The position numbers were made by a program, and so were the translations under genes. Below, piece after piece: positions 7,135 to 22,344 of a stretch of 34,053 nucleotides of DNA; position 1 is the first letter of the stretch, and each line of letters opens with the position of its first letter. A model generated the notes under the pieces. That model was not told the origin of the DNA, did not search any database, and saw only the letters and a list, made by a program, of their open reading frames with translations. The stretch is from a virus, in IMG/VR virus record IMGVR_UViG_3300017770_000066, positions 1 to 34,053 of that record; one strand, written 5' to 3'.

Positions 7135-7320
7135 TTAAACGATGTTGTACTTACGTCGAAAGACTTCTTCCCTGTCTATATCGATGTCACCGTTTGCTTC
7201 AAATGATAGGCGAGCTGAAGAGCGTTTTGTTTCTGTTAACTTTACAAGGCAGATAACTTCGCCATTTTTATGAATGACAACGTTCTCGTCTTCCTTGCGA
7301 TTGAGTACAAGTCTGCTCAT
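7135..7320 (-). CDS. csrA: CsrA-like translational regulator
   Basis: A 61-residue homolog of CsrA/RsmA, a dimeric RNA-binding protein that represses or activates translation at GGA motifs near ribosome sites. The N-terminal strand SRLVLNRKEDENVVI matches the family LILTRRxGE-VxI strand. The C-terminal IDREEVFRRK matches the conserved VHREEIYxR, with R50 at the place of the key RNA-contacting arginine R44. The length equals bacterial CsrA. It overlaps the polymerase stop by ATGA, with AAGG about 10 bases upstream. It could retune host mRNAs or time phage translation; many phage ribosome sites here contain AGGA or GGAG. The identification is firm; the targets are unknown. Confidence 0.87.
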   Translation of the reverse strand: MSRLVLNRKEDENVVIHKNGEVICLVKLTETKRSSARLSFEANGDIDIDREEVFRRKYNIV

Positions 7321-9143: not shown

Positions 9144-9384
9144 CTTCAAGATCTTCCAATCTGTTGTCGTATAGTTGCTCAAGACGTAGAACGTGTTCTA
9201 TTTCTCGCGCAGTGCTTACTTGTTGTTCTATTTGCTTAAAGTTTTCTTCAAGTTCTTTGGCAAGATTGGGTTGACGGGATTTGAGCCACACATAGGTGTA
9301 GCTGTATAAGTCATATTGATTGGGGTTTTGCCGCCGCTCTTGTTCTTCCTTGTGAGCGAGGTCCATATATTCTTCAGCTTTCAT
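9124..9384 (-). CDS. Hypothetical charged helical protein
   Basis: An 86-residue acidic protein, unrecognised. It is almost entirely charged helix (EEYMDLAHKEEQERRQ, then ELEENFKQIEQQV), with an aromatic patch YDLYSYTYVW near residues 24-34 and an acidic C-terminus. The ribosome site AGGAGG is among the strongest in the window. It overlaps the polymerase start by 20 bases, so a polymerase clamp-like or accessory role is possible, from position only. Half-sites of the dyad lie upstream. Confidence 0.75.
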   Translation of the reverse strand: MKAEEYMDLAHKEEQERRQNPNQYDLYSYTYVWLKSRQPNLAKELEENFKQIEQQVSTAREIEHVLRLEQLYDNRLEDLEDDTIKY

Positions 9385-9636: not shown

Positions 9637-9810
9637 TCAAAATAGTGGCTCGTATATATCGCCTCGTTCTAGCTTTTCTCTAAGACGGCGATACTCGCTC
9701 CATAGATGTTCTGACGGGGTGCCTTCCCAGTCAGCATTACGTGCTGTGTCATATGCTTTTTCCACAGCGTCTGTTATCGCAATTAAACGATTCTTAACTT
9801 GGCCGGTCAT
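9637..9810 (-). CDS. Hypothetical protein, 57 residues
   Basis: Begins MTGQVKNRLIAITDAVEKAY and ends ERGDIYEPLF. It is predicted mostly helical and charged, with SEHLWSEYRRLREKL as a likely amphipathic helix. GGAG lies 8 bases before the ATG at 9810, and the ATG overlaps the stop of the VWA gene (ATGA). No family is recognised. The coupling suggests it is made with the MoxR/VWA operon. Confidence 0.65.
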   Translation of the reverse strand: MTGQVKNRLIAITDAVEKAYDTARNADWEGTPSEHLWSEYRRLREKLERGDIYEPLF

Positions 9811-10928
9811 GACGTTAACTCCATGTAAATTGTTTCACCCCATGGGGCCTGAAGACTTTTGTCAGTACTAACCCATAACACGGGGTATTGAGGTTCGTCC
9901 CCAAAATCATCTGACCCAAGGTCTGTGAGGTACACACATGCTTCAATGTCGTCGTCGATTTCTTCGATTGCTTTGAAGGCCGGTGAGAATGCTGTGCCAC
10001 CGCGGCCGGTAAACGTTGGTGGTTCTTCCCAGAAGTTTTCTGCTGCGTCCCACTCAAAGGCATCATTGACTTGTGTATCGCAGCCAATACATATGATTTT
10101 GGATGGCTGAGTTTCTTTGGCGACAGCAACGATTTCGGACCAGAACTGATGTAGTTCTGCATCGGAAACTGATCCGCTGGTGTCAACACAGATGGCAATC
10201 GTGCCGCATGATTCGTTGTACATAGATGGTAAGTATTCATCCTCGCTTATGTATGCTCGGTTAGGTTTACGCCATGTGTATTCATCACGGCTTGTGTTGG
10301 TAAAGAAGGGCCAGAGAACCTGACGCCAATCGACTAGTGGTTGAAGCACGTCACCGATAAGGGTCTCGATGTTGCCGGGTAGTTTGCCTTGTGCCTTGGC
10401 TAGTTCAGCTGCTTGGTTGATAGCAACCTGCCAGTCAGACTCAAGCTGAGCGCCTGAAACTGCTTCAAGACTGTTACCACCAGCATCTTGTACGAGACCC
10501 CAGACTGGCATCTCTATTGTTTCGACATCTTCAAGAAGCTTTACATAGACTGCGTCGGTGGTGTCGTTATCAAACTCACCTTCTGTGTCGACAAGTCCGC
10601 CTTCTGGAAGGATGAACCCTGCGCTAAGAAGTTCTCCGTTGATTTTGTAATCACCGGCGACATTCCAAATTGTAGGGTGGCGATCTTGTCGACGTGTCAT
10701 GTGTTGTAAAACACAATGCATAACCTCATGAGCAACAAGACCAACAGTCTCGTGGATTGTTAGTTTGTTGATGAAGTCAGCGTTGTAGAAAAGATGCTTG
10801 CCGTCGGTAGCGGCTGTATCAATCTCTGGTTTTTCTACAACTTTAAGACGCAAAGCCAAGGTGCCGAAGAACGGTTGTTCAATCAGCAACTTGGTTCGTG
10901 CCTTGAGAATTTGATTCTCAGCGGACAT
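9807..10928 (-). CDS. VWA-domain protein with N-terminal metallopeptidase-like domain
   Basis: A 373-residue two-domain protein of the DUF2201 kind. The N-terminal domain has a zinc-peptidase helix HEVMH (67-71) and a following WNVAGD (88-93). The C-terminal von Willebrand A domain has an intact MIDAS: D249-x-S251-x-S253 in DTSGSVS, T312 in RGGTAF, D336 in YLTDLG. Such proteins pair with MoxR AAA+ ATPases to assemble or remodel protein complexes. The partner ATPase is two genes upstream in the same operon. GGAG before the ATG overlaps the preceding gene's stop. The target in this phage is unknown. Confidence 0.88.
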   Translation of the reverse strand: MSAENQILKARTKLLIEQPFFGTLALRLKVVEKPEIDTAATDGKHLFYNADFINKLTIHETVGLVAHEVMHCVLQHMTRRQDRHPTIWNVAGDYKINGELLSAGFILPEGGLVDTEGEFDNDTTDAVYVKLLEDVETIEMPVWGLVQDAGGNSLEAVSGAQLESDWQVAINQAAELAKAQGKLPGNIETLIGDVLQPLVDWRQVLWPFFTNTSRDEYTWRKPNRAYISEDEYLPSMYNESCGTIAICVDTSGSVSDAELHQFWSEIVAVAKETQPSKIICIGCDTQVNDAFEWDAAENFWEEPPTFTGRGGTAFSPAFKAIEEIDDDIEACVYLTDLGSDDFGDEPQYPVLWVSTDKSLQAPWGETIYMELTS

Positions 10929-10929
10929 T

Positions 10930-11631
10930 CTAATCTCCTAGTAAAGAGGAAGTGAGAAGTACTTGGTTGGCTGCGTCAGCGTCAAACTGGGACAAGTCGC
11001 GGACTTTTTCTGCATCGACTTTGCGTGTGACTTTGGTGTGCAGCTTTTGGATAACGTCGTTAGGTAAGAGCGTTTCCGCACCTGGCCAAACTTCGAGTAG
11101 TTGTTTGACTGTGTTGCACTGTTCAAGAACAGAATTGATAGACTTTGCAAAATGATGGAACTTTTCTTGATAGGCAGCAGTATTGTCAATTGCAGTAGCA
11201 AGTGTGCTGTGGAGTTCGTCACGTACTGTGATGTCAAATGAATCAATGCTGACATCATACGAACCGTAGTTGCTGCCGTAAGGCAGTTGTACAGGCGTAT
11301 CTAATTCACAGTAGATGTCTGTGGGATCTCCAGTTTCAGCATATCGAGTATGCTTTGTAATGTTGTGAACACGAATTTCTGTAACGTTGCCTGCCTCTGC
11401 GCGGTTCAATGCGAGAGAGATTTCGCTTTTAGTTGCCATCTCATTTTGAATCGTTGGTGTTGCTAGCATCGTATTGAATGCAGTAACGGCAGGCATAGTT
11501 TGAAGTCCCGCTCGTAAAACAATCATAAGTTCAGGAGATTGATTGGGTTCGGGATTAGTAACTTTGTATTTCTCTTTGGCAGCATCAAGAAGTTGACGGT
11601 GCAGTTGTTGAGATAGTCGTACTGTAGCCAT
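10930..11631 (-). CDS. Hypothetical protein between MoxR and VWA genes
   Basis: A 233-residue protein. The N-terminus VRLSQQLHRQLLDAAKEKY looks like a ribbon-helix or helical start. The middle is beta-rich and aromatic. Near residue 175 is TVKQLLEVWPGAETLLP, a motif I recall from phage proteins of the Nmad5 type (linked to nucleotide modification); that link is weak and from memory. AAAGGA precedes the ATG. It sits tightly between the MoxR ATPase and the VWA gene, so it may be their substrate or adaptor. Confidence 0.8.
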   Translation of the reverse strand: MATVRLSQQLHRQLLDAAKEKYKVTNPEPNQSPELMIVLRAGLQTMPAVTAFNTMLATPTIQNEMATKSEISLALNRAEAGNVTEIRVHNITKHTRYAETGDPTDIYCELDTPVQLPYGSNYGSYDVSIDSFDITVRDELHSTLATAIDNTAAYQEKFHHFAKSINSVLEQCNTVKQLLEVWPGAETLLPNDVIQKLHTKVTRKVDAEKVRDLSQFDADAANQVLLTSSLLGD

Positions 11632-11648
11632 GGTTTGAATCCTTTCAG

Positions 11649-12659
11649 TTAGATAAGTACGTTAGCGTTGTCTTGTGTCCACTTTTGAAATGCAGTGGTT
11701 TGAATCAGGTCACGATCTTTAGCTAGTGAGTCACGAACGATTACAACTTGGTATTCAGCAGGCATGCGCTTGGCATAAGCCATGATGTCTTTGAAGTTGT
11801 TTTCGTCTGCACGTGATGCAAGAGCACCCGACACAGCAAACAAGATTGACGGATCGTCAGGCACGCTTACCGAATGCGGTGAAGCTAGGACTTTGTCGAG
11901 GTCAGGCATCTTGTCTGCAGATTGTTTGAATGCAATGAACTCACCTGCTGGTCCATCACCGATGACTGACGCAACACCGTAGAACTGTTCGTCTGGTGTG
12001 CTGCCCATAAACGGTAGTTTGCGGTCAACCATTTCCCATGCACGCGGTGTAGGGAACGCATTCTCCCTGGAGTCGAGTGAATGTAGTAGCGTGGGACGAT
12101 AGCGTAAGAATGAAATAATAGTAGGGCTAATATTATTACTCAATGCCCAAGCTACCCAGTCATCAATGTTGGCTTCGATTTCATAGTGAGCGAAACGGTT
12201 CTTCACTGGTGTTGGCATTTCATGTACAGCTGCACGATCGATGCTTCGGTTACCCGCTGCAATGATTGCTGTACCAGCTGGCAAGCTGTATGTACCAATC
12301 TTCTTGTCGAGGATTAGCTGGAGCAATGCATTCTGTGTAGCTTTGGGTGCGTTAGGCAACTCGTCAACGAGCAGCACAACGTTACCTGCGTAGCTACTGT
12401 CGGGGTAGTCTTCAGGGACACCGTACTTGGTACGGTATGTACCGTCGTCTTGCTCGACAACTTTGAGGCCGCCACGTACGTCAACTGGGTCAAACAAGTT
12501 GGCCCGAAGTTCGAACAGCTTGGCGTTCAGGTCTTCTGCAATCTGATAAGCAATCTGAGACTTGCCAATACCCGGAGGGCCCCAGACCATAGTTGGTATG
12601 TTAGCGCGCGCATTGGCACGTAGCTCGTTAGCTAGTTGAGAGGGTCGAATAGTTCGCAT
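11649..12659 (-). CDS. MoxR-family AAA+ ATPase
   Basis: A 336-residue AAA+ ATPase. Walker A is GPPGIGKS (27-34), Walker B LLVDE (96-100), sensor 1 N137 in AAGNRS, and the arginine finger region NRF (154-156). The DPVDVRGG insert after Walker A is typical of MoxR and of the related CobS/chelatase branch, so database labels such as CobS are possible but no cobalt pathway is present. It likely acts as a chaperone with the VWA protein. AAAGGAG precedes the ATG by 7 bases. It is first of the trio at 9807-12659. Confidence 0.88.
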   Translation of the reverse strand: MRTIRPSQLANELRANARANIPTMVWGPPGIGKSQIAYQIAEDLNAKLFELRANLFDPVDVRGGLKVVEQDDGTYRTKYGVPEDYPDSSYAGNVVLLVDELPNAPKATQNALLQLILDKKIGTYSLPAGTAIIAAGNRSIDRAAVHEMPTPVKNRFAHYEIEANIDDWVAWALSNNISPTIISFLRYRPTLLHSLDSRENAFPTPRAWEMVDRKLPFMGSTPDEQFYGVASVIGDGPAGEFIAFKQSADKMPDLDKVLASPHSVSVPDDPSILFAVSGALASRADENNFKDIMAYAKRMPAEYQVVIVRDSLAKDRDLIQTTAFQKWTQDNANVLI

Positions 12660-12674
12660 TATAAACTCCTTTGT

Positions 12675-13217
12675 CTATGCGGTTACGTTGGTGATTGTGA
12701 TTGGTAAATAATGTTTGAAGTCTTCGCTTCGTTTGAAGATGGTCCATGATTCTTGTTGAAAATATTTGGCAAGCTTTATCTTGCATCCGTTGTGACGGTG
12801 GCTTGTCATAAGATTGCTGTTGTAAATAGAGTAGATAAGGGTGTTGTTTTTACAGACGTGACCACCAAGCCACATGTTGGTTATGTCTTCGTCTTCTCGT
12901 CTTAATGTTTTGTGAGTTGGTGAAATACGATAATCAAAATCATAGGGTCTATGATATGGAGGCGCTGTCCACTTGGTGTGGTGTGGAACTTGTGCGTCGG
13001 TCCGCCATTCGAAAGGTCGTTCCATGAAACATACAAGTCGTAGATCCGGGCGATCGTCGTTTGTATTACGTTCACCCCAAGTGTAGTACTCAGTGCAGTA
13101 ACCGTTGCCGCCGGGGTACATTTCGTGTTCGGTGGGTGGTGAGAAGAGGATGTCTTCTCGGATGTCATGTTGTTCTTTGAGTGCTACTCCTAGTTCTGTT
13201 GGAAGATAGTTCTTCAT
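12675..13217 (-). CDS. Hypothetical protein, 180 residues
   Basis: Unrecognised. It is rich in aromatic residues and His (for example CTEYYTWGERNT, HHTKWTAPPYHRPYDFDYR) with scattered cysteines and no clear metal pattern. No membrane segment or signal peptide. AAAGGA precedes the ATG by 7 bases. The first 53 bases overlap the end of a possible zinc-ribbon gene in another frame. It lies just upstream of the MoxR gene and may share its transcript. Confidence 0.75.
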   Translation of the reverse strand: MKNYLPTELGVALKEQHDIREDILFSPPTEHEMYPGGNGYCTEYYTWGERNTNDDRPDLRLVCFMERPFEWRTDAQVPHHTKWTAPPYHRPYDFDYRISPTHKTLRREDEDITNMWLGGHVCKNNTLIYSIYNSNLMTSHRHNGCKIKLAKYFQQESWTIFKRSEDFKHYLPITITNVTA

Positions 13218-13329
13218 TTAGATTCCTTTCTACATATTTCTCATGACAAAAGCGGCACGCTCCATCCTGGAGTCGATGTCTTCTTCCGCAAAAGTCACAT
13301 TCACCTATGGGTCTTTGATCTTCATCCAC
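13165..13329 (-). CDS. Possible zinc-ribbon micro-protein, 54 residues
   Basis: Starts with GTG at 13329, with AGGAAAGGA immediately upstream. The sequence begins MDEDQRPIGECDFCGRRHR and carries CDFC and CRFC spaced 13 residues apart, a compact zinc ribbon, followed by a charged Ser/Thr/Arg tail. It overlaps the preceding gene's stop by 8 bases and the start of the 180-residue gene by 53. Two CxxC pairs behind a strong ribosome site make chance unlikely, but the long overlap keeps confidence moderate. Role unknown; RNA or protein binding is typical of such ribbons. Confidence 0.5.
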   Translation of the reverse strand: MDEDQRPIGECDFCGRRHRLQDGACRFCHEKYVERNLNEELSSNRTRSSTQRTT

Positions 13330-13582
13330 GTCCTTTCCTCCCTCTTAGATAATCTAAAGATGGTTGAAAGCTTCTGCAGTGTGAGTTGTGTGGTCTTGGA
13401 AACCAGATATGAAGGTCGTTAGTAGACCCACTGTTTATGAATCGCATGCACACTCGTGCTCTTGGGCATGTGTCGTCGTTACATAAAACTTTGACGGTGC
13501 CCCATAGACGATTGCTTGTATCAGTTATCTGGTTTCCGTGATCACTTGAGAACCTTTGAGCTCTCTGTGTATATGATGTCAT
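13322..13582 (-). CDS. Hypothetical Cys/His-containing protein, 86 residues
   Basis: Unrecognised. It has C-x4-C-x5-C (CNDDTCPRARVC) and a later His/Cys pair (HNSHC), so a metal site is possible. The C-terminus is basic (LRGRKGRG). GGAGG lies about 6 bases before the ATG at 13582. The start overlaps the upstream 75-residue gene by 41 bases. The overlap and cysteine content fit the pattern of compressed small early genes in this segment. Confidence 0.6.
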   Translation of the reverse strand: MTSYTQRAQRFSSDHGNQITDTSNRLWGTVKVLCNDDTCPRARVCMRFINSGSTNDLHIWFPRPHNSHCRSFQPSLDYLRGRKGRG

Positions 13583-13769
13583 CGATATCCTCCGCCTGTT
13601 TAATCAGTTGTTTTGCAATTGATTGGTAGGCTGACGTATACGAAGCCAAGCCCCCTTGCCCTGTTAAAGGAAACATCTCGATGTCAACGTACTGATTGAC
13701 ATCAGACAATACTTCCAACAGAGCAACTGCTTGGGTTCTAGTCAAGCGGAGAGATACAGTTCGAGACAC
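13542..13769 (-). CDS. Hypothetical protein, 75 residues
   Basis: Starts with GTG at 13769, whose first base overlaps the last base of the previous gene's TAG stop; GGCGGA lies about 7 bases upstream. The sequence (SRTVSLRLTRTQAVALLEVL) looks like a beta strand followed by a helix, and the rest is helical with an acidic end. No family recognised. The N-terminal strand-helix recalls ribbon-helix-helix DNA binders, but this is not established. Confidence 0.65.
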   Translation of the reverse strand: MSRTVSLRLTRTQAVALLEVLSDVNQYVDIEMFPLTGQGGLASYTSAYQSIAKQLIKQAEDIDDIIYTESSKVLK

Positions 13770-14047
13770 TACGCAATCCGCCAGACCCGTATAAATTTAC
13801 CCCCATTTTCCACAACAGTTTGTTGCTCGAGCTTAAATGTCTGTGGGAGTTTCTCTATCTTCTTCAGTCTGTGGACGCAGGCGACGGCTCCGTGTGCTTC
13901 GCTTTGTTTAGTGAAGCGCACTGAATCACCTATCTCCATTTGATGCAGCCAAACGTATTTGATTGTGCCAAATTCGCTTGCTGGAGTTCCGCGAGCGCCT
14001 ACTATTTTCTCAGGCTTCGGGATATTTTTTTCAATAGTAACCGTCAT
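13769..14047 (-). CDS. Hypothetical protein, 92 residues
   Basis: Starts MTVTIEKNIPKPEKIVG at the ATG at 14047, chosen because AAAGGA precedes it; the longer in-frame extension to 14158 has no ribosome site and overlaps a small gene. Contains ASEFGTIKYVWLHQMEIGDSV and ends GKFIRVWRIA, a beta-rich pattern. Unrecognised. It looks like a small globular protein with a GDSV turn, in the series of early genes. Confidence 0.72.
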   Translation of the reverse strand: MTVTIEKNIPKPEKIVGARGTPASEFGTIKYVWLHQMEIGDSVRFTKQSEAHGAVACVHRLKKIEKLPQTFKLEQQTVVENGGKFIRVWRIA

Positions 14048-14088
14048 ATTAAATCCTTTCGTATAACGGAAGTTGAAATCTTGTCGGT

Positions 14089-14208
14089 TTACCGATTCTT
14101 GTTGTACATCTGGTTCCACAGCCAGCCGCTTAATTTGCTGGCTCGATGTGAAAACCAAATTACTGGACGGCTATTCCATAGCCAGTGGTTGTATCGTTGC
14201 TTACTCAT
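14089..14208 (-). CDS. Trp-rich micro-protein, 39 residues
   Basis: A frame of 39 codons starting MSKQRYNHWLWNSRPVIW and ending MYNKNR. It has five tryptophans and many basic residues, so it could be a membrane-surface or RNA-binding peptide. Its ATG overlaps the stop of the 92-residue coiled gene (ATGA); there is no independent ribosome site. Probably translated by coupling. Function unknown. Confidence 0.45.
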   Translation of the reverse strand: MSKQRYNHWLWNSRPVIWFSHRASKLSGWLWNQMYNKNR

Positions 14209-14483
14209 AGTGAGCCAAGCTTTTCGTCTAGTGTTGCTATTCTTTGTTCAAGGTATTCCTGTTGTGCACATAGCTCCTCGAAATGTTCTTCAAGTGCGTA
14301 GCCCTTGATCCGTCGTTGACCGTCCTGCATGTAATACGTGCAGCTGTCTTCGATCTGTGCAAGCTGAGAGCAGACATCTTCTAGCTCATCTTCAGCAGCG
14401 GTAATTAGTAAGCCAATGTCAGCTTCTCGCTGAGCAATTGATACGCCTTCAAGGTAGGCGTCGTATGAAGTATCAGAGACCAT
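14205..14483 (-). CDS. Coiled-coil hypothetical protein, 92 residues
   Basis: A strongly acidic, helical protein with heptads over residues about 20-90 (AAEDELEDVCSQLAQIED, then LEEHFEELCAQQEYLEQRI). The ribosome site AAAGGAGG lies 6 bases before the ATG at 14483. The start overlaps the end of the 60-residue gene by 11 bases. No family recognised. Confidence 0.72.
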   Translation of the reverse strand: MVSDTSYDAYLEGVSIAQREADIGLLITAAEDELEDVCSQLAQIEDSCTYYMQDGQRRIKGYALEEHFEELCAQQEYLEQRIATLDEKLGSL

Positions 14484-14655
14484 GTTCGTCCTCCTTTAAA
14501 ATCGGCATGCAAGCTGCGATCTCTGTACCGGAGCCTGCATTTATGTCTTCTGCTAACAGTATACATTCGTCTCGCTCAAGGCGCGTTTGTGCAGAGGTAA
14601 GTTCTAATTTATCTCCGACGCTGATGTAAATTAGCAACACATATACGTAGGTCAT
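14473..14655 (-). CDS. Small protein with N-terminal hydrophobic segment, 60 residues
   Basis: Starts MTYVYVLLIYISVGDKLEL at 14655, where AAAGGG sits 6 bases upstream; an in-frame start 11 codons earlier has no such site. The first 14 residues are hydrophobic, and could be a short anchor or signal, but there is no basic N-region. The rest is acidic with three cysteines. The ATG overlaps the stop of the zinc-ribbon gene (ATGA). Function unknown. Confidence 0.6.
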   Translation of the reverse strand: MTYVYVLLIYISVGDKLELTSAQTRLERDECILLAEDINAGSGTEIAACMPILKEDEHGL

Positions 14656-14819
14656 GCTGTCCCTTTCAGTTCTTTTGCAGTGTCCCAATGCCGAGTGATT
14701 TCTATATCAACGTTGTAAACTGCAGAACAGTTGCGGCATTTGTAGAGTTCGTACTCAACGCCATCGCTGTCTGCCCAGTTAAGTTTGGTATTACAGTGAG
14801 TACATGTTTCTGGTGTCAT
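14652..14819 (-). CDS. Zinc-ribbon protein, 55 residues
   Basis: Contains CTHC (residues 6-9) and CRNC (28-31), a classic four-cysteine zinc ribbon with 18 residues between the pairs, followed by a helical tail. The chosen ATG at 14819 follows the previous gene's stop after one base (TAATATG). A GTG start at 14879 would add 20 residues but overlap the upstream gene by 59 bases. Such ribbons often bind RNA, DNA or transcription factors; the specific role is unknown. Confidence 0.68.
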   Translation of the reverse strand: MTPETCTHCNTKLNWADSDGVEYELYKCRNCSAVYNVDIEITRHWDTAKELKGTA

Positions 14820-14820
14820 A

Positions 14821-15183
14821 TTAATACCAGCACGAGTAAACAACTGTGCTGCCTTCTGTTTGTAGTGCTTGTTTAGCACGCTCGATAAAATCTAAGTCGT
14901 TAGCTTTTTCTTCTTCTGCTGCTTCTTCTTGAAACTGATGACCCCAAAAGAAACCGCCAGGACAATGGTAGTCTTCGTACCCATTGTGCACCTGCTCTTC
15001 TAGTTTGTTGATGTCATCAATATCAAGTTCTAGTTCTTGGCAGTTGAATACTTCGCCGTTGCCTTTGGAATACCACAGTTCCATCATGAACTGCTGCAGG
15101 CGGGAGTGTTTCTGCCACTCAAAGCTGTAGAAGTGTGGATTCCATTTGTTAATTCGAACGTGTGCGTATTGATCAAGTCCCAT
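14821..15183 (-). CDS. MGLDQY-type conserved phage/bacterial protein
   Basis: A 120-residue protein starting MGLDQYAHVRINKW, matching a widespread family that opens MGLD-x-Y, contains WxKHxxLQ (here EWQKHSRLQQFM), then FNCQELEL, a short acidic helix, GGFFWG, and a final VVYSCWY. Such proteins are sometimes mislabelled phosphoglycerate kinase; the real function is unknown. The ATG at 15183 is chosen for AAAGGA upstream; a longer frame to 15246 lacks one. No membrane segment. Confidence 0.8.
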   Translation of the reverse strand: MGLDQYAHVRINKWNPHFYSFEWQKHSRLQQFMMELWYSKGNGEVFNCQELELDIDDINKLEEQVHNGYEDYHCPGGFFWGHQFQEEAAEEEKANDLDFIERAKQALQTEGSTVVYSCWY

Positions 15184-15243
15184 GTCTGTTGTCCTTTCTC
15201 CGTGGTCTACGGTTCGTGGCCAGCCAGCAAGCACACCAGCTAG

Positions 15244-15282
15244 CAAAAAAAAAGCCCCCCCGACGCCCGAAGGCGCCGAGGG
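15244..15282 (-). terminator. Rho-independent terminator with UUCG loop
   Basis: Read on the minus strand, an 11-bp stem (two G-U pairs) closes a UUCG tetraloop at 15268-15271 and is followed by C and nine T residues. It begins 10 bases after the stop of the 272-codon frame. This is the clearest intrinsic terminator of the leftward arm. Confidence 0.88.
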
Positions 15283-15291
15283 AACAGGGAT

Positions 15292-16077
15292 TTAGAACGT
15301 GATTGCAGCTTTGTAGTCAGCCAATGAAGGGACTTTAGCTTTCTCAGTTCGGTGGTTGCGGTCTTGCTTGTCAGCTTTGAGCTGAGCTAGCTTCTTGATA
15401 GCGTACTCGGGGTTTAGTCGGACGTCGTTTTGCTTGTGCCAACCTTGTGCCACACTCTTAACTTCTTCCCAGACCAGATACCAAACACCAGCTTGAACTG
15501 CTACGTCGGTCATGATGTCCCAACACTTATCTGCGGTGAACCCGTTGGGGTCTTTTGGGCCGCCGTTACGTTGTTCATTTTCTGCAACGCTGTGATACAG
15601 ATGTTTGTAGTACGCACGAGCAGCTAATTTTTCTTCCGCAATACGCTTGACCGAATCGATGACAGTATATTCCTCGTACGGGTTGTTACGAACGATATCG
15701 CCATAGTTATCCATGAGGGATTTAATACGGTCTTTCTCTTCTGCTTCTGCCAATTTAACCATGCCAGAGACTTGTGACTCACCGTCATCATGTTGCTTGC
15801 GAAGCTCTGCAAGAAATGTGTGGCTTGGGACAAGATGCTGTTTGCCGTCTTTGAACCCCCTGCCGAAAACATCCGTGCTGGATACTGTGTAATTATTGAA
15901 TACGAACGGCGGATATTCTGGAACGTACTCTTCGCGAGCTGCTGCCCCTTCTGGGTCAGCGTTTGTATCTTCTGTATACATATCATGAGTTGTCTCCACA
16001 GGTGAGGTTAGTTCTTCACGCTCGCCCTCCATCAGAGGGTCGAAGTGATTAGTAGTTGCGAGTGATTTTTTAGACAT
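15292..16077 (-). CDS. Hypothetical protein, 261 residues
   Basis: Starts MSKKSLATTNHFDPLMEGE at 16077 with AAAGGAG 6 bases upstream; an in-frame start at 16110 lies inside the previous gene. The N-terminal 60 residues are acidic and low-complexity, followed by EYPPFVFNNYTV and a long charged helical region (ELRKQHDDGESQ, KRIAEEKLAARAYYKHL). The C-terminus is basic. Unrecognised. It ends at a strong terminator, so it is the last gene of its transcript. An abundant or structural-like early protein is possible. Confidence 0.8.
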   Translation of the reverse strand: MSKKSLATTNHFDPLMEGEREELTSPVETTHDMYTEDTNADPEGAAAREEYVPEYPPFVFNNYTVSSTDVFGRGFKDGKQHLVPSHTFLAELRKQHDDGESQVSGMVKLAEAEEKDRIKSLMDNYGDIVRNNPYEEYTVIDSVKRIAEEKLAARAYYKHLYHSVAENEQRNGGPKDPNGFTADKCWDIMTDVAVQAGVWYLVWEEVKSVAQGWHKQNDVRLNPEYAIKKLAQLKADKQDRNHRTEKAKVPSLADYKAAITF

Positions 16078-16096
16078 AAGAAACTCCTTTTTCTGT

Positions 16097-16243
16097 CTAG
16101 TTGGATGCAAGTTTGTTACGCAAACTTGCTAAGAAAGGAACGTCGTTCCAGAGGGATTCTGGTTCTAGTTCGTCGTCAATAAATTTGATTGGTGGTATGT
16201 CAGCCTCAGCCAACACACTGTTCAACCATTCAATGTCATCCAT
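16097..16243 (-). CDS. Acidic micro-protein, 48 residues
   Basis: Starts MDDIEWLNSVLAEADIPP and ends LRNKLASN. It is very acidic and has an AAAGGAG ribosome site 6 bases before the ATG at 16243. A dyad element lies 16 bases upstream, so it heads a transcription unit. Small acidic early proteins often mimic DNA or bind host enzymes, which is speculation here. A 9-bp hairpin (GCAAGTTTG/CAAACTTGC, 16107-16129) lies inside its last codons. Confidence 0.68.
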   Translation of the reverse strand: MDDIEWLNSVLAEADIPPIKFIDDELEPESLWNDVPFLASLRNKLASN

Positions 16244-16258
16244 GATTTTCTCCTTTTC

Positions 16259-16273
16259 ATTAGTGACACTAAT
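16259..16273. promoter_or_regulatory. Dyad element copy 4 (ATTAG-TGACA-CTAAT)
   Basis: An exact match to ATTAGTNNNRCTAAT in the 67-base gap between the NADAR gene stop and the acidic micro-protein. It is placed to drive or block leftward transcription of the 16243-15292 unit. Confidence 0.75.
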
Positions 16274-16310
16274 ATTGCCAATCGAAGCGCAGCGTAGCGG
16301 AGCGCCGTGT

Positions 16311-16739
16311 TTACGCTGTCGCTATCAACTGGTTAACAATCTCGCGGGCATGGCTCTGAGCCATTTTTAAGATGCGGGGAAATTCTGTTTTCCAGATGCC
16401 TCTATCCTGAATATGGGCAAACTCCACATCATCATTAAAGAGGCAAAGGTCATCACAGAACCAATCGTTCTGTTCAACAGAGGCTAGAATCAACCGCTCC
16501 ATTAAGCGGATATTCCAGTTATTCTCGGTCTTCGTGCCGAGCTTACCTACAATCTTGCGACCGGGTTGCCAGTCTGCGCTGTAAACGGTTTCATCAAACC
16601 TACCAGACTTATATGTCTGATATGCATGCTCAACAGTTACATACTCACTGCCGTACTTATCAGAGAACGGACGGTGAGCTAGGTTAGACAACCAAGCATT
16701 CTCATTTGTGGAATACCACACGTTTATAACTTTATTCAT
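16311..16739 (-). CDS. NADAR-domain protein (YbiA-like)
   Basis: A 142-residue protein that is essentially one NADAR domain. Visible motifs are WYSTNENAWLSNLAHRPF (residues 8-25, the usual F-SN-F loop), VTVEHAYQTYKS (34-45), GRKIVGKLG and a C-terminal DVEFAHIQDRGIW. NADAR proteins cleave N-glycosidic bonds of ADP-ribose-linked or riboflavin-pathway nucleotides, and some remove ADP-ribose from DNA guanines. In a phage this may undo a host DarT-type attack; that is inference. AGGAG lies 10 bases before the ATG. Its neighbour carries a SLOG domain, which also handles nucleotide-derived ligands. Confidence 0.85.
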   Translation of the reverse strand: MNKVINVWYSTNENAWLSNLAHRPFSDKYGSEYVTVEHAYQTYKSGRFDETVYSADWQPGRKIVGKLGTKTENNWNIRLMERLILASVEQNDWFCDDLCLFNDDVEFAHIQDRGIWKTEFPRILKMAQSHAREIVNQLIATA

Positions 16740-16740
16740 A

Positions 16741-16863
16741 TCAATATGCTCCTAGTAGTGCGCTGGTTATGCTGATGCCGCCCCCAAATATATGGAAAGC
16801 GACATCGACTAATACTAAAATTACAAAATCCATAGGTTCAATTTTGGATAGAAAACCTTTCAT
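16741..16863 (-). CDS. Membrane micro-protein, 40 residues
   Basis: Starts MKGFLSKIEPMDFVILVLVD and stays hydrophobic to the end, with one or two membrane segments and a Gly-rich turn FGGGIS. AAAGGG lies 7 bases before the ATG at 16863, and its stop is one base before the NADAR ATG. It lies between the SLOG and NADAR genes in one operon. A membrane partner for either is possible but untested. Confidence 0.6.
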   Translation of the reverse strand: MKGFLSKIEPMDFVILVLVDVAFHIFGGGISITSALLGAY

Positions 16864-16865
16864 GA

Positions 16866-17330
16866 TTAAACCCTTTCAGCTAATTCATACTGTTTGCGGC
16901 GCATAGTTACGCTGTGTTGGCTAGTTGCATCATCAACAATGACATCAGGCTCGAACAGCTCACGCTGTTGATTGCGATATTTGATAACTCGCAATGGCAT
17001 ATCAATGCTCTTGGCAATATCAATCATATGCTTGCTTCCACGGGATTTTTCATCCCAGAAAACAACGCATGCATCTGCATAGGCAGCCATCTGCTGATTG
17101 CGTTTATAGCCAGCCGAGCGGCCATGTTTATTCCACTCGGCATTCATAACCGTCAACTTGTAGCCGCGGTTATGTGCGTAGACGATTGCTGAGCGGTCTG
17201 CGCCACGCGCGCCGCCTGATACAATTTCAATTTCATCTGGCTGCTTATTCTGCAGCAGATTGTCCAAAGTGCGGTCCATAAGGTCTTGCGACCAGAAACC
17301 ACGAGAGCCAGCAACTATTAAACGAAACAT
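16866..17330 (-). CDS. SLOG-fold (YspA/DUF2493-like) nucleotide-binding protein
   Basis: A 154-residue Rossmann-like protein. It begins MFRLIVAGSRGFW, with the GSR turn, then VSGGARGADRSAI (glycine loop), WNKHGRSAGYKRNQQMA and DEKSRGSKHMI, the conserved series of the SLOG/YAcAr family related to DprA and LOG. These bind or process NAD- or nucleotide-derived ligands. GGAGG precedes the ATG at 17330; a longer frame to 17360 has no site there. It pairs with the NADAR gene across a small membrane gene, which suggests a nucleotide or ADP-ribose module. Exact ligand unknown. Confidence 0.85.
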   Translation of the reverse strand: MFRLIVAGSRGFWSQDLMDRTLDNLLQNKQPDEIEIVSGGARGADRSAIVYAHNRGYKLTVMNAEWNKHGRSAGYKRNQQMAAYADACVVFWDEKSRGSKHMIDIAKSIDMPLRVIKYRNQQRELFEPDVIVDDATSQHSVTMRRKQYELAERV

Positions 17331-17340
17331 ATTTACCTCC

Positions 17341-17694
17341 CTATACTTCATGAACATCATTGAACTCGGGGTTCAACATGTGTGCTTTAAGTGAGTAGTA
17401 GTCGGACTCAGTCCAACCTTTTTCATCGCCACCAAGACGCTTCCATTCTTTGCGAACAAATGCGGGTTCATCCAAACTTTCCCAAGGCGGAACGTTTTCA
17501 GGCACAGCGTGGTCAACATACCGTGCCTTCAAATCAAGCTTGTGGATGTAATGAGCAACGTGAAGGAGTGCTGCACCGACCAAATACATAAAGACGGACA
17601 GTGCGATAAAGAACGGGTCCATTCCAGAATGGAACAAAGTCGTAATCGCAACTACCAAAGATGCGATACCTATTGCGTAATAAAAATATTTCAT
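17341..17694 (-). CDS. Membrane protein with soluble C-terminal domain
   Basis: A 117-residue protein with two membrane helices (about residues 5-22 and 28-50), then a soluble acidic domain rich in Trp, Pro and Lys (PPWESLDEPAF, EWKRLGG). AAAGGAG lies 6 bases before the ATG. It heads the leftward NADAR/SLOG operon, just inside the central repeat region. Family not recognised. The layout (two helices plus cytosolic tail) fits a membrane sensor or anchor. Confidence 0.78.
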   Translation of the reverse strand: MKYFYYAIGIASLVVAITTLFHSGMDPFFIALSVFMYLVGAALLHVAHYIHKLDLKARYVDHAVPENVPPWESLDEPAFVRKEWKRLGGDEKGWTESDYYSLKAHMLNPEFNDVHEV

Positions 17695-17739
17695 GATGAG
17701 CTCCTTTCATGAGCGTTAAACACATATCAGTTGCCAAAA

Positions 17740-17763
17740 GCCTAATGGCCGTAGGCCATAGGC
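17740..17763 (-). terminator. Hairpin with T tract, leftward
   Basis: A GCCTATGGCC/GGCCATTAGGC stem (one bulged A) with a TAC loop, followed on the minus strand by TTTTGG. It would stop leftward transcripts coming from the central repeat region before they enter the 117-residue gene. The U tract is short, so efficiency is uncertain. Confidence 0.5.
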
Positions 17764-17769
17764 GTGAAC

Positions 17770-18086
17770 CGTGGTCCGTGGTCCACGATTTGTGTTCCAC
17801 TGTGTTCCACTGTGTTCCAGCTGTGTTCCAGATATGAATCAGGGTTAAGTGTTTGATGTGTATAGATAAAGTGGATGTGTTCCACTGTGTTCCAGTTTTA
17901 GGGGGGGTCTTTTGATGTTGGAAAAACAAAATCAATAAACCGTTTTCTAAAACTAAACCGTGAGTTGGTGGAACACATGGAACACAAGGTCCGTTAACCG
18001 TGGTTTGTTGTTCGTGGTCAAGGGGTTAGGTGTGTTCCAGATTGTGTTCCATGTGTGTTCCATAAACGGTGTATTCGTGGAACACA
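17770..18086. repeat. TGTGTTCCA iteron-like repeat array
   Basis: Twelve exact copies of the 9-mer. Nine face right: 17791, 17801, 17811, 17822, 17876, 17886, 18031, 18043 and 18054. Three face left: 17969, 17978 and 18078. The first four and the 17876/17886 pair have 10-11 base spacing, one helical turn. Interspersed are CGTGGTC 7-mers (tandem at 17770-17783, again at 18013 and 18153). No credible gene crosses it. It lies between the divergent arms and resembles a replication-origin iteron set or a protein-binding array. Confidence 0.8.
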
Positions 18087-18178
18087 GGCCGTCGACCGGG
18101 GACGGAGGACTGTGGACAGAGGACCGTTGAGAACGAACCGAGAACAGTTATTCGTGGTCATTTGACCGTGGTTCAATG

Positions 18179-18208
18179 CCCGCAAGCATGACACCCGCAA
18201 GCACGACA
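18179..18208. repeat. Tandem 15-bp repeat
   Basis: CCCGCAAGCATGACA (18179-18193) is followed directly by CCCGCAAGCACGACA (18194-18208), one mismatch. It lies between the TGTGTTCCA array and the hairpin at 18226. Function unknown; it may be part of the same control region. Confidence 0.75.
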
Positions 18209-18225
18209 CGTCATTAAAGGGACAA

Positions 18226-18253
18226 CGCCCGCAGGTAGAAGAACCTACGGGCG
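18226..18253 (-). terminator. Hairpin after the 62/63-residue membrane gene
   Basis: An 11-bp stem (CGCCCGTAGGT/ACCTGCGGGCG on the minus strand, one G-U pair) with a 6-base loop, 14 bases beyond the stop of the small membrane gene. A short T-rich stretch follows, so it is a likely intrinsic terminator of that gene. Confidence 0.7.
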
Positions 18254-18267
18254 CTAGTCTCTAAGCG

Positions 18268-18459
18268 TTATGCACGTCGCTTGCGCATTGTTGGCAGGTT
18301 AACGCCGAACGCGGTCAGCACCATCGATGCGAGAGCCAGCGGCCAGCAAATAATAATCACGAGCGGCAGGCGGCTGTCGATGGTGCGACCGGGCATCTTC
18401 TTGGGGAAGAAGACAGCAGCTGCGTATACAAAGAATCCATATGCAAGATATTCGACCAT
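18268..18459 (-). CDS. Small membrane protein, 63 residues
   Basis: Starts MVEYLAYGFFVYAAAVFF, one helix, then the basic turn KKMPGRTIDSR and a second helix PLVIIICWPLALASMVL, ending TMRKRRA. This two-helix hairpin with a positive tail recalls holins or other small phage membrane proteins, but no lysis genes are adjacent. AAAGGAG lies 7 bases before the ATG, and a hairpin follows the stop, so it is its own small unit in the central region. Function unknown. Confidence 0.72.
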   Translation of the reverse strand: MVEYLAYGFFVYAAAVFFPKKMPGRTIDSRLPLVIIICWPLALASMVLTAFGVNLPTMRKRRA

Positions 18460-18592
18460 GGTTTTAACTCCTTTAACTAACCATTAATTACATATACCGA
18501 TGCCACGGGGAGCCAAAGCGTAGCGACGCGACCCTTATCTCGATATGGGACCCACACACAGTTTTGTAAACAAGGTTCCATAGAGTAAAACC

Positions 18593-18700
18593 GGGGGACG
18601 GGGGCCACTTGCACGGATGGGGAGGGGGATTTGTGAGCGGTTCGTAAATATATTTTCAAATTTTTTTTCTGGAAAAATTTTCTAGACTGTTTTTCCTTAT
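18593..18700. other. G-run block beside AT-rich block between divergent arms
   Basis: On the plus strand four G runs (18593-18597, 18600-18604, 18619-18622, 18624-18628) could fold as a G-quadruplex with loops of 2, 14 and 1 bases. From about 18640 to 18700 the DNA is very AT-rich, with runs of T and A. The block lies between the leftward small gene and the rightward HNH gene, so it should contain promoters or an unwinding element. I see no consensus sigma70 promoter with confidence. Confidence 0.5.
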
Positions 18701-18719
18701 TCATGTAGCTCTACAAGCT

Positions 18720-19217
18720 ATGCCTGGAAAGACAAAAGTATGTTTGTACTGCGGCGAAGCAAAGCCGCTTTCGGATTTTGGCCCCATTGCCAAAGCCCAA
18801 AACGACACTGATGGAACAGGCAAAGTGAATCGCTGTAACTCATGCGTCACTAACAGACGTATGTATAAGAACTCGCAAGACCCTGTGTACTTTCTAAGAG
18901 ACCTGTATAGCAAACATAAATCGGCCACAGTTAAAAAAGCTAAGCACGAGTGGACCATCACAGTAGAAGATGTGATTGCTTGTTGGGATTTTCAGAAAGG
19001 ACGGTGTGCGCTGAGCGGTGTATACATGACCCACCACCACGATCGCGGCGAACGCAAAGAATTTAACGCTAGTATCGATCGTATCCGTAGCACCGAGGGT
19101 TATACGATTGACAACATCCAACTGGTCTGTGCCCGCGTAAATATAATAAAGAACAATCTGGATGAAGCCTCCCTCTACTGGTGGGTCAAAAATATTTATG
19201 ATTTCTCTTGTGACTAA
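18720..19217 (+). CDS. HNH endonuclease
   Basis: A 165-residue protein. The N-terminal zinc ribbon has CLYCGEAKPLSDF and RCNSC (residues 8-44). The C-terminal nuclease part has KGRCALSG, ASIDRIRSTEGYTIDNIQLVC and VNIIKNN, the layout of phage HNH enzymes that use ID(R/Q) and the following Asn. It may help cut concatemers at packaging, as HNH genes often sit next to terminase, or be a free-standing homing enzyme. No clear ribosome site precedes the ATG. It is the first gene of the rightward arm. Confidence 0.82.
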   Translation: MPGKTKVCLYCGEAKPLSDFGPIAKAQNDTDGTGKVNRCNSCVTNRRMYKNSQDPVYFLRDLYSKHKSATVKKAKHEWTITVEDVIACWDFQKGRCALSGVYMTHHHDRGERKEFNASIDRIRSTEGYTIDNIQLVCARVNIIKNNLDEASLYWWVKNIYDFSCD

Positions 19218-19219
19218 CT

Positions 19220-19234
19220 ATTAGTTAGACTAAT
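19220..19234. promoter_or_regulatory. Dyad element copy 5 (ATTAG-TTAGA-CTAAT)
   Basis: Exact ATTAGTNNNRCTAAT in the 26 bases between the HNH stop and the next ATG. Here it ends 9 bases before the start codon, closer than in any other copy, so a transcript that begins downstream would be almost leaderless. Confidence 0.75.
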
Positions 19235-19243
19235 AATTGTGAT

Positions 19244-19513
19244 ATGACAGTTGCCACCCAAGTTGTTGCCCTGGACGGCCTAGACGATGCAATCATCGGT
19301 ACATGTAACCAGCTGGGCGGCGGCGAGGTTGTAGCGTACGACTACAGGAAGGTAGTCGCGCTGTTTGAATCCATGGACTGGAATGAAGACGAGTTTGAAG
19401 AATGGTGGGAAGTGATGTCTGAAAACATCCCCCCTGACTCTTACCCAGTGTTTGTAAATCTAGATGATTCGGTCCGATATGAAATCGCAGCCCAAAGAAA
19501 CGGATGTCACTGA
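19244..19513 (+). CDS. Acidic hypothetical protein, 89 residues
   Basis: Unrecognised. The N-terminus VATQVVALDGLDDAIIGT is followed by GGGEVVAYDYRKVVAL and an acidic helix (DEFEEWWEVMSE). No ribosome site is visible; only the dyad element lies upstream. The last 50 bases overlap the start of the small terminase frame. Its position before terminase suggests a packaging or regulatory role, without motif support. Confidence 0.7.
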   Translation: MTVATQVVALDGLDDAIIGTCNQLGGGEVVAYDYRKVVALFESMDWNEDEFEEWWEVMSENIPPDSYPVFVNLDDSVRYEIAAQRNGCH

Positions 19514-19985
19514 GCTAGACCCACACGTCGAGTTTCAGTCACACCTAAGATATGCCGGTCTAAACTTAAACGAACTTACGACTCAACAGGAGACGTACGT
19601 ACTCGCGCGCGTAGGTGGCATGAACATCGTAGCGTCCGCGCGTGCCGCCGGTTACTCAGAGCGCTCAGCTTATGACATCGAGAAACGCCCCGCTGTGGCG
19701 AAAGCTATTGATTACTTTCGTGAACAGAATCGTGAGGAAGTACGGTTTGAACTGGCCGACGCGCATTGGATGTATCTAAAAGCATACAACTCCAGCGCCA
19801 ACGCAACAGAGATGAAGAACACCACCGACTCTCTTGTGAAACTGCACGGCCTGTCCAAAGAAGAAACAAAACCACTGGTGAACATACAGATCAACGGATC
19901 TAAGCAGCTCGAACGTATGACCGATGAAGAGCTGCTCGAGATCGCCGGTAAAACGATAGACCACTTAGAACCGAAAGCTGATTAG
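19464..19985 (+). CDS. Probable terminase small subunit
   Basis: A 173-residue protein with the usual small-terminase plan: a helix-turn-helix near residues 40-73 (LTTQQETYVLARV, then ASARAAGYSERSAY), a helical middle, and an acidic C-terminus (EELLEIAGKTIDHLE). It would recognise the packaging site and deliver DNA to the large subunit. The frame opens at 19464, but an ATG at 19479 (MKSQPKETDV) is equally plausible; neither has a good ribosome site and both overlap the previous gene. Large terminase follows after one gene. Confidence 0.68.
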   Translation: MIRSDMKSQPKETDVTELDPHVEFQSHLRYAGLNLNELTTQQETYVLARVGGMNIVASARAAGYSERSAYDIEKRPAVAKAIDYFREQNREEVRFELADAHWMYLKAYNSSANATEMKNTTDSLVKLHGLSKEETKPLVNIQINGSKQLERMTDEELLEIAGKTIDHLEPKAD

Positions 19986-19987
19986 CC

Positions 19988-20701
19988 ATGTCTCGTCTTG
20001 CTCATTTAAAAACTTTAGCTAACCAGGCAAAAATCGGGACAGCCGAAAGAATAGTTGGACCCACGTTCGCCCCCTTGTTAGCCAAGTTTTGGGGGGCTGA
20101 TACAAAAACAATGACAGAAGATACATTTAATCAGGCTGGCAGAGACGCAATAAAGAATGCAGCAGAAGACACAATACTACAGGATAAAGATGCAATTCGT
20201 TACGATCAGTACGGTGCAAAACTAGTAGAGAGTAAGTACCGCGCTAACGAAGCCGGTGTGCAGCTGCCTTATTTAGAAGAAATCGGTAAGATGCTACAGA
20301 CATTTACCCCCGAAAAGGCGGCGGCTTATTCGATTGGGTCAACCAGCGCGTCCAATATTTTTGTTGATGACGACAACAACCTGATACTCAAAGATCGGAT
20401 CGACTACCCAGAGCTGAATAAAACAAAAGGGTTTAAACGAGACGATTCTATCTTCATGAAGATACACAGATTGTTCGAACCCGACGGGGTGTTCGGTGTA
20501 TCAGATCAGAACACAAGAGATGTTCGTTTAAATCTTGGCCCCACAAGCAAAAGCGTAGCTCAGAAACTTCGTGATAGAGGTCAAGTAGATAACATACTAA
20601 AACCAAAGCCCCGGCCACGCCGTATTGGTGATCCACCTCTACCGCGTCCAGATTACAAACCCGCTCCTATGATCAGTGAAAGATTGCTAGGAACTCTATG
20701 A
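19988..20701 (+). CDS. Hypothetical protein between terminase subunits
   Basis: A 237-residue protein. The helical N-terminal part is followed by a beta pattern: YSIGSTSASNIFVDDDNN, LILKDRIDYPE, IHRLFEPDG and DVRLNLG. The same pattern (LG-x-F, DRYDF, R-G, V-x-I-P) is visible in the very large gene at 31865, so the two may share a small domain found in virion-associated phage proteins. The C-terminus is a Pro/Arg-rich tail. The stop overlaps the large terminase ATG (ATGA). Function unknown. Confidence 0.72.
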   Translation: MSRLAHLKTLANQAKIGTAERIVGPTFAPLLAKFWGADTKTMTEDTFNQAGRDAIKNAAEDTILQDKDAIRYDQYGAKLVESKYRANEAGVQLPYLEEIGKMLQTFTPEKAAAYSIGSTSASNIFVDDDNNLILKDRIDYPELNKTKGFKRDDSIFMKIHRLFEPDGVFGVSDQNTRDVRLNLGPTSKSVAQKLRDRGQVDNILKPKPRPRRIGDPPLPRPDYKPAPMISERLLGTL

Positions 20702-22344
20702 CTGAGGTAGTTCAAATTGAGTGCAGACGTTGCCATAAGAATCAGCCGGAGACACTTTACTCTGGAGACGACGGGTACTGTGCGTATTGTGTGGCTGACA
20801 TGCAGGATGCCATGCCTGACCCAGACCAACCTACGCCCCAAGAAGTTGAACAACGGACCACGGCCGAAGAACTAGCGAAACAGGAGCTTGCATCACGGTT
20901 CTTGACTCGTCGTCGGTTGTTGCCGTTTATCGAACGAAACAATCCTGACTACATGGCGGGATGGGTACATAAAGACATATGCCAACGACTCGAGAAGTTT
21001 AGTGAGGCTGTAGTAAATAAAGAGAGCCCGCGGCTCATCCTGCAGATGCCCCCTCGACTTGGGAAGTCGACCATAGCCAGTGTAGGTTTCCCTGCTTGGC
21101 ATATAGGCCGTAACCCACAACATGAGTTTATTAGCTGTTCATACTCTGGAGCGTTGGCTATGACCTTCAGCCGTAAAGTACGGCAGACGCTTCGTGAACC
21201 GTCGTTCAAGACTACATTTAAAACACGCCTGGACCCTGACTCGCAGTCAGCGGAAGCCTGGCTAACGTCTGCTGGTGGTGGCTATGTCGCCGCCGGTGTT
21301 GGTGGTGGTATCACCGGTAAAGGTGCACATGTATTAGTGATTGATGACCCTGTTAAAAACCGCGAGGACGCAGAGTCACAAAATAACCGTGAGAGCACAT
21401 GGGACTGGTACACCTCCACCGCGTATACGCGTCTTGCCCCTGGCGGAGGGATTCTTGTAATCATGACCCGCTGGCACGACGACGATTTGGTCGGCCGCCT
21501 TTTGAAGAATATGTCGGAGGGTGGTGACGAGTGGGAAGTTGTTAAGTACCCCGCTATCGCGGAGGAAGACGAAGAGTTCCGCGAGGCCGGAGAAGCACTT
21601 CACCCAGAGCGATATGACGTAGAAGCACTAGAGCGTATACAACGAGCCGTGGGCCCAAGAGATTGGTCCGCGTTGTATCAGCAGAATCCAGTTGCAGATG
21701 ACGGCGATTACTTTACAAGGGACATGATCCAGTACTACGACAGAGAAGATATCGACCAGGATAGGTTGCGTTATTACTGTGCGTGGGACTTAGCTATAGG
21801 TAAAAGAGATAGAAATGACTACTCAGTTGGTATGGTGGTTGGTATTGACGAGTTCGATAATTTATTCGTTGTCGATGTCATCCGCGGTCGGTTCGACGGT
21901 TTTGAGCTTGTCGAACGGATTTTAGACTGTTATGAATTATGGAGGCCCTCGATTATTGGAATCGAAAAGGGTCACATCGAGATGGCGCTTGGCCCGTTCC
22001 TAGAAAAGCGAACGCGCGAGCGAGGTCTCAATGAGGCTTACTTCAAGGATTTGAAAGTTGGCCGCCGCGATAAAGAAGCTCGTGCTCGAGCTATTCAAGG
22101 TCGTATGCAGCAGGGAATGGTGTTCTTGCCGCGTAACGAAGTTTTTACCGGCCCGTTGGTGGCAGAACTTTTGCGCTTCCCGAACGGTGTCCACGATGAC
22201 CAAGTTGATGCGTTGGCATGGATTGGATTGATGATGACGGAGTTTTCTACATTCCACGAACGTATTGTTGAGCCGCCAAGCTGGAGAGACAGACTCCGCT
22301 ATCTTGGTAAAGAAGTGAAGATCAAATCAGCGATGAGTGCGTGA
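20698..22344 (+). CDS. terL: Terminase large subunit
   Basis: A 548-residue packaging motor with nuclease. It opens with an unusual zinc ribbon (C9, C12, C28, C31). The ATPase part has the Walker A-like PPRLGKS (118-124), Walker B HVLVIDDP, and coupling region near VIMTRWHDDDL. The RNase H-fold nuclease shows WDLAIGKRDRNDYS, IGIEKG and the C-terminal HDDQVDALAW. It resembles large terminases with the TIGR01630-type C-terminal nuclease domain. Coupled to the previous gene by ATGA. Confidence 0.93.
   Translation: MTEVVQIECRRCHKNQPETLYSGDDGYCAYCVADMQDAMPDPDQPTPQEVEQRTTAEELAKQELASRFLTRRRLLPFIERNNPDYMAGWVHKDICQRLEKFSEAVVNKESPRLILQMPPRLGKSTIASVGFPAWHIGRNPQHEFISCSYSGALAMTFSRKVRQTLREPSFKTTFKTRLDPDSQSAEAWLTSAGGGYVAAGVGGGITGKGAHVLVIDDPVKNREDAESQNNRESTWDWYTSTAYTRLAPGGGILVIMTRWHDDDLVGRLLKNMSEGGDEWEVVKYPAIAEEDEEFREAGEALHPERYDVEALERIQRAVGPRDWSALYQQNPVADDGDYFTRDMIQYYDREDIDQDRLRYYCAWDLAIGKRDRNDYSVGMVVGIDEFDNLFVVDVIRGRFDGFELVERILDCYELWRPSIIGIEKGHIEMALGPFLEKRTRERGLNEAYFKDLKVGRRDKEARARAIQGRMQQGMVFLPRNEVFTGPLVAELLRFPNGVHDDQVDALAWIGLMMTEFSTFHERIVEPPSWRDRLRYLGKEVKIKSAMSA

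Follow-up and report, generated by a model that had tools for sequence, protein, structure and literature searches.

The repeat array and its surroundings

IMG/VR virus record IMGVR_UViG_3300017770_000066, a 34-kb viral contig that is probably a genome fragment, was analysed over its full 34,053 nucleotides (the window). An array of short repeats (iterons) separates a leftward replication arm (helicase, exonuclease, primase-helicase, family A polymerase, MoxR-like ATPase and a VWA/metallopeptidase protein) from a rightward arm (endonuclease VII, terS, terL, portal and capsid genes). An earlier note, made from the sequence alone, had proposed this array as a replication origin linked to the primase-helicase that the phage encodes along with its own polymerase, and both genes were found in the left arm (Table 1).

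The twelve 9-mers that the note had counted in about 300 bp were recovered as twelve exact copies of TGTGTTCCA at 17791-18086 (296 bp), nine on the plus and three on the minus strand. No copy was found elsewhere in the window, for which 0.36 would be expected by chance, and among 100 shuffled windows the maximum was three copies, twelve being reached in none. The phasing of several copies at one helical turn was likewise evident from start-to-start spacings of 10, 10, 11, 10, 9, 12 and 11 bp. The two neighbouring motifs are also present: CGTGGTC occurs ten times in the window (both strands), four of these copies lying at the array, and the two units of the 15-bp tandem repeat are identical at 14 of 15 positions. 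No plausible gene was found inside the array, and the stretch is non-coding. As the note had stated, the motif is not a DnaA box; the array lacks the boxes of a DnaA-dependent origin, with no match to TTWTNCACA nearby and the only two in the window at 9758 and 13806.

Place and layout of the array in related phages

Relatives were collected by a terL search, which gave 80 viral contigs that were then scanned for any dense 9-mer. Extra arrays were obtained through primase searches and pattern scans, and a DUF2201 query for contigs covering both array and primase yielded 4 loci only. Of the 26 testable loci, defined by at least 3 kb of upstream sequence, 24 carry an array in the corresponding position, which lies 1.4-3.6 kb upstream of terL. 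Twenty of these satisfied a strict rule, and the other four (L023, L024, L025 and L028) carry arrays that mix TGTGTGTCA and TGTGTGCCA, the mixture being seen directly in L023 and L028 and assigned in L024 and L025 from the same array positions. The two loci not counted as array-bearing, L008 and L017, are unclear.

The layout of the array is shared: an outer set, an abutting pair, a 75-bp AT-rich core, an opposed abutting pair and a second outer set. Relative iteron starts cluster near 0, 20, 31 and 43 and then 95 and 104 (all forward), followed by 188, 197 and sometimes 206 (reversed), and a mixed set up to about 300. The core between the inner pairs measures about 75 bp and is AT-richer than its surroundings in most relatives. 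The consensus for integration host factor (IHF) is WATCAANNNNTTR; exact matches to it number 25 in 35 arrays, compared to 0.7 expected from local shuffling, and fall mostly near offsets 55-76 and 204-247. Judged from sequence, the AT-rich core, the opposed pairs of iterons and the IHF-like sites give the array the anatomy of an origin.

Across the phages the iteron takes about 20 different sequences, and within a phage its copies are mostly alike. The variants include TGTGTTCCA, TGTGTACCA, TGTGTGCCA, TGTGTGTCA, TGTGTGTCG, TGTGTGTCC, TGTGTGTAC, TGTGTGACG, TGTGTGCAG, TGTGTAGCA, TGTGTACAC, TGTGAGACA, GGTGTGACA, CTGTGACA, TTCGTGCCA, TTGTGCCA, TTGTAGCAG, CTGTGCAGG, TGTGCACC and TGGTACC. The repeat sequence changes across relatives over the whole array, and the mixed arrays look like intermediates. 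Unlike the window, two relatives with TGTGTGCAG have a perfect DnaA box, TTATCCACA, flanking their arrays: L113 (at ∼563) and L120 (at ∼1058).

The change of all copies at once is clearest in L250, L006 and L310, which have the layout of the window with twelve copies of TGTGTACCA. Relative to the window, iteron position 6 is changed in 12 of 12 copies in each of the three, while the other 96 iteron bases show 1, 0 and 0 differences, respectively. Between the iterons, 23-28 of 188 bases (12-15%) differ. Such a twelvefold change must, on this evidence, have built up inside a conserved layout. When L310 was compared with the window at 11142-19873, long flanking stretches on both sides were 97-99.5% identical, whereas a block at ∼15.2-18.5 kb, comprising the array and neighbouring left-hand genes, was diverged or replaced. 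The position of this block between near-identical flanks indicates that the array region recombines as a block and marks the segment as a recombination hot segment.

Dense arrays with 11-13 copies (TGTGTAAC, TGTGTGCA) were also seen in L355 (3814-4112), L277 (12045-12300), L312, L364, L375 and L376. These contigs have no recognisable window-type primase or DUF5906, and in some of them the geometry is different.

The primase-helicase and its predicted winged helix

The primase-helicase matches DUF5906 (Pfam) and, by sequence, the helicase region of the phage NrS-1 PrimPol in the PDB (E = 2.5e-28). Fold matches were obtained with NrS-1 (1.7e-23) and with the PriRep of Staphylococcus aureus pathogenicity islands (SaPI; 3.8e-9), SaPI PriRep1 and the SaPI5 primase-helicase being among them. 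The replicon thus encodes a primase-helicase of the archaeo-eukaryotic primase/superfamily 3 helicase (AEP/SF3) type known from PriRep and NrS-1 origins. AlphaFold predicts a C-terminal winged helix, with helices at residues 753-764 and 772-781 and strands at 787-789 and 801-807. Modelled alone, this domain reached a pLDDT of 86; the matches returned by Foldseek were weak (best E = 0.16), many of them being winged-helix proteins. In contig G016 (30893-33387; L095, L098-L100) the primase-helicase frame is interrupted by stops, through assembly error or real loss, while the array of this contig is intact.

Iteron consensus and primase were paired in 30 phages, with three related phages added afterwards. 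Every phage with A at iteron position 6 carries T, S or P at residue 799, and nearly every other phage has N there. Where position 9 is A, residue 802 is R with a single exception (G064); the eight phages with G at position 9 all have S, T or L instead. Residue 782 is usually N when position 7 is C, and otherwise usually C, F or H. Many of the paired phages are related, so that raw counts overstate the evidence. The null model evolved the base along a tree of the primase body. Under this null, 799/position 6 and 802/position 9 rank first among the variable columns and 782/position 7 second, with per-column p values of 0.00005, 0.0001 and 0.002. Jointly, the covariation gave p = 0.0005 within the winged helix and p = 0.01 over all 50-residue windows of the protein; taken each alone, the pairs had family-wise p values of 0.18 (799/6), 0.08 (802/9) and 0.48 (782/7). 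The helicase and several other proteins, with too few paired sequences, stood outside this comparison. Eight of eleven predictions written in advance held.

The statistics for residues 782, 799 and 802 are good but not conclusive. The AEP/SF3 primase-helicase is likely the reader of the array and, by sequence, the best candidate, while the exact residue-base code should be regarded as provisional.

Known systems with similar arrays

In NrS-1 (AB746912) the PrimPol gene (14895-17051) is followed immediately on its 3' side by an array of 11 AAGTGTAAC copies at ∼17061-17380. NrSPol recognises GTG and TTTGGTTA, the latter being its recognition sequence (PMC8718748). In the 37-kb NrS-1 genome TTTGGTTA occurs once, inside the array. 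The two systems are alike in the homologous helicase region of the protein (NrSPol; PDB 6K9C/6K9E/6LRB) and in the NrS-1 repeats, GTGTAAC in both orientations with an AT-rich stretch. They differ in the exact iteron and in the tail domain: that of NrS-1 hits a Pfam family of its own, and its alignment to the winged helix of the window is poor.

Two further cases were found. One is a phage group whose primase is 24% identical and whose array lies beside the 3' end of the primase gene. The other is Pseudomonas phage KPP25, which encodes a 30%-identical homologue and carries TGTTACGA seven times in an early intergenic region. KPP25 (L401) also has 17 copies of GCTGGGCTG at 10864-11128, sixteen of them in a tandem of 9-bp period. 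No array of this kind was found in the first 50 kb of HTVC027P or the first 28 kb of Aeromonas phage phiA008.

The origins of phage-inducible chromosomal islands (PICI) lie beside pri-rep and consist of an AT-rich region between two sets of iterons (PMC6092414). The window array resembles the PICI/SaPI Pri-Rep origins in its iteron sets around an AT-rich region, which in those origins are served by a primase/replication initiator. The PICI origin, however, lies immediately 3' of the initiator gene, whereas here the array is at 17.8-18.1 kb and the gene at 4.6-7.1 kb; on account of this distance the array was classed as a variant working like the PICI type rather than as a member of it. It differs further in having four blocks, 10-13 iterons and IHF-like slots in a lytic-type phage genome. 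In the PICI-like element (PLE) satellites of Vibrio cholerae, iterons covary with the RepA DNA-binding domain and switching is linked to an origin-directed nuclease (PMC8263062). PLE has a RepA_N initiator, three iterons of ∼30 bp and modules that are swapped whole, in contrast to the 12 short iterons of the window type, each changed by one base within a conserved layout. By analogy, the window array would work like the PICI and PLE origins, from which it differs in gene distance, four-block layout, IHF-like sites and in-place iteron change.

Interpretation of the array

The array is very probably the origin of phage DNA replication, as the earlier note had suggested; the relatives, the origin anatomy and the kinship with NrS-1 and PriRep all support this. 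The note had also asked for a comparison of relatives and had named, as an outcome that would count against an origin, an array unrelated to replication proteins. This did not appear, array and primase-helicase being kept together on the same contigs. We consider it highly probable that the whole is explained by an iteron origin of the PriRep/NrS-1 type, read by the winged helix of the primase-helicase.

Several observations weigh against this explanation. The primase gene lies 10.7 kb from the array, unlike in PICI and NrS-1. Of 11 other contigs carrying similar arrays, only 2 had a PF19263 match, so that such arrays also exist where this family was not found. Residue 799 has exceptions (S in G028 and L141, H in G063), and three of the eleven advance predictions failed. 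The pairing for G061 (L250 array and L101 primase) joins two one-sample contigs that overlap with a mismatch. Finally, how significant the covariation is over the protein as a whole varies with the tree used: when the domain was included in it, with one genome fewer, the p value for the primase rose from 0.01 to 0.245, with values of 0.9 to 1.0 for polymerase, TerS, TerL and others.

The foremost of the rival explanations, which we regard as improbable, is a pac/cos-like packaging site near terS/terL, bound by the small terminase. It would agree with the position of the arrays upstream of terL in relatives, with the NrS-1 array adjoining terS and with the presence of array sequence at both ends of the 55-kb contig G015. 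However, TerS columns show no covariation with the iteron (best-window p = 0.999), the candidate array of KPP25 is ∼4 kb from the terminase genes, the core, opposed pairs and IHF-like sites are those of an origin, and the recognition sequence of the NrS-1 primase sits in the NrS-1 array.

Slightly less probable still is a role in transcription control, with a regulator of the phage binding the array as an operator between early and late arms. The location between oppositely transcribed arms would suit such a role, and uniform, lineage-specific binding sites would fit a repressor too, as is generally known of phage operators. Against it, promoter-like and terminator-like matches were at chance level in a scan, the winged helix of the primase tracks the iteron, and all 12 exact copies share one locus instead of being distributed over promoters or dispersed over the genome like mycobacteriophage-type stoperators. 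The initiator may nevertheless double as a transcriptional regulator.

The least probable reading, a variant of the origin model and not a different function, is that the primase domain, not the winged helix, reads the repeats as single-stranded priming sites on melted DNA; GTG lies within most iterons and the NrSPol recognition motifs would fit, but priming sites need neither the fixed inverted geometry nor a uniform 9-mer, and the best covarying residues are in the winged helix rather than the primase domain.

For an origin read by the winged helix, the following sequence of events can be proposed. The AEP/SF3 primase-helicase would bind the iterons as double-stranded DNA through its C-terminal domain, and host IHF would bend outer sets A and D inwards. 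Outer sets and opposed inner pairs B and C would then load hexamers in head-to-head orientation onto the AT-rich core, and the core would melt. Bidirectional synthesis would be started by the protein's own helicase and primase domains, and the family A polymerase of the phage would take over. Three residues would set the specificity: N782, where the recognition helix ends, for position 7, and N799 and R802, both in the wing, for positions 6 and 9, respectively. With a change in these residues all iteron copies would change along, so that each lineage would have a private origin code.

What is new is the switching of iteron specificity within an otherwise conserved origin. It offers a natural experiment in which an initiator and a dozen binding sites shift specificity together, with the residues and bases to test already named. 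The NrS-1 PrimPol, whose recognition motif was already published, is now connected with an array of iterons next to its gene. The array also offers a mark for the origin, and possibly a compatibility code, in a widespread group of uncultured phages. More tentatively, and with the odds somewhat against it, this group may keep its origin architecture while repeatedly re-coding all iterons and a three-residue winged-helix reader; conflict with satellites, related phages or nucleases directed at origins would then make the origin a barcode that evolves quickly and marks the lineage.

Genome context

Table 1. Coordinates of the array elements and associated genes in the window.
Feature	Position	Strand	Remarks
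CGTGGTC tandem pair (17770, 17777)	17770-17783	+	more copies at 18013, 18153
Iteron block A, four direct TGTGTTCCA (17791, 17801, 17811, 17822)	17791-17830	+	
IHF-like site between blocks A and B	17846-17858	-	one mismatch to WATCAANNNNTTR; exact matches at same slot in relatives
Iteron block B, two direct TGTGTTCCA (17876, 17886)	17876-17894	+	
AT-rich core between opposed inner pairs, candidate melting site	17895-17968		AT 0.64 vs 0.53 in window
Iteron block C, two abutting reversed TGTGTTCCA (17969, 17978)	17969-17986	-	
Iteron block D, forward part, three TGTGTTCCA (18031, 18043, 18054)	18031-18062	+	
Iteron block D, last copy, reversed	18078-18086	-	
15-bp tandem repeat CCCGCAAGCAYGACA, two copies (18179-18193, 18194-18208)	18179-18208	+	not conserved in L006
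Primase-helicase, 834 aa, DUF5906/NrS-1 PrimPol-like	4585-7089	-	proposed iteron-binding initiator
Predicted winged helix of primase-helicase, residues 753-807	4669-4833	-	N782, N799, R802; predicted structure, covariation
Family A DNA polymerase	7317-9182	-	
Small terminase	19464-19985	+	candidate reader in packaging rival; no covariation with iterons
Large terminase	20698-22344	+	anchor for finding relatives

The array had been placed where transcription diverges. It does lie between the opposite arms, but leftward ORFs flank it on both sides: a gene at 17341-17694 on the left, and small ORFs at 18268-18459 and 18477-18704 on the right, which matched no family in a Pfam comparison. If the latter are genes, the point of divergence would be shifted 0.6 kb rightward from the array, to ∼18.7 kb. 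The GC-skew profile that the earlier note had recommended shows a local turn near 17-18 kb, a signal that the direction of the genes confounds.

A close cultured relative was not found (best terL 52%, best primase 30%), and the paper found for the HMO-2011 type says nothing of iterons or intergenic repeats; for these reasons the HMO-2011-type label assumed at first was not used. MW202426, considered as a candidate relative, was dropped as a different genome. Within the replication arm, a MoxR-like ATPase, an Nmad5-like protein and the VWA/metallopeptidase (DUF2201) protein are grouped at 9807-12659 on the minus strand, as they are in most relatives examined.
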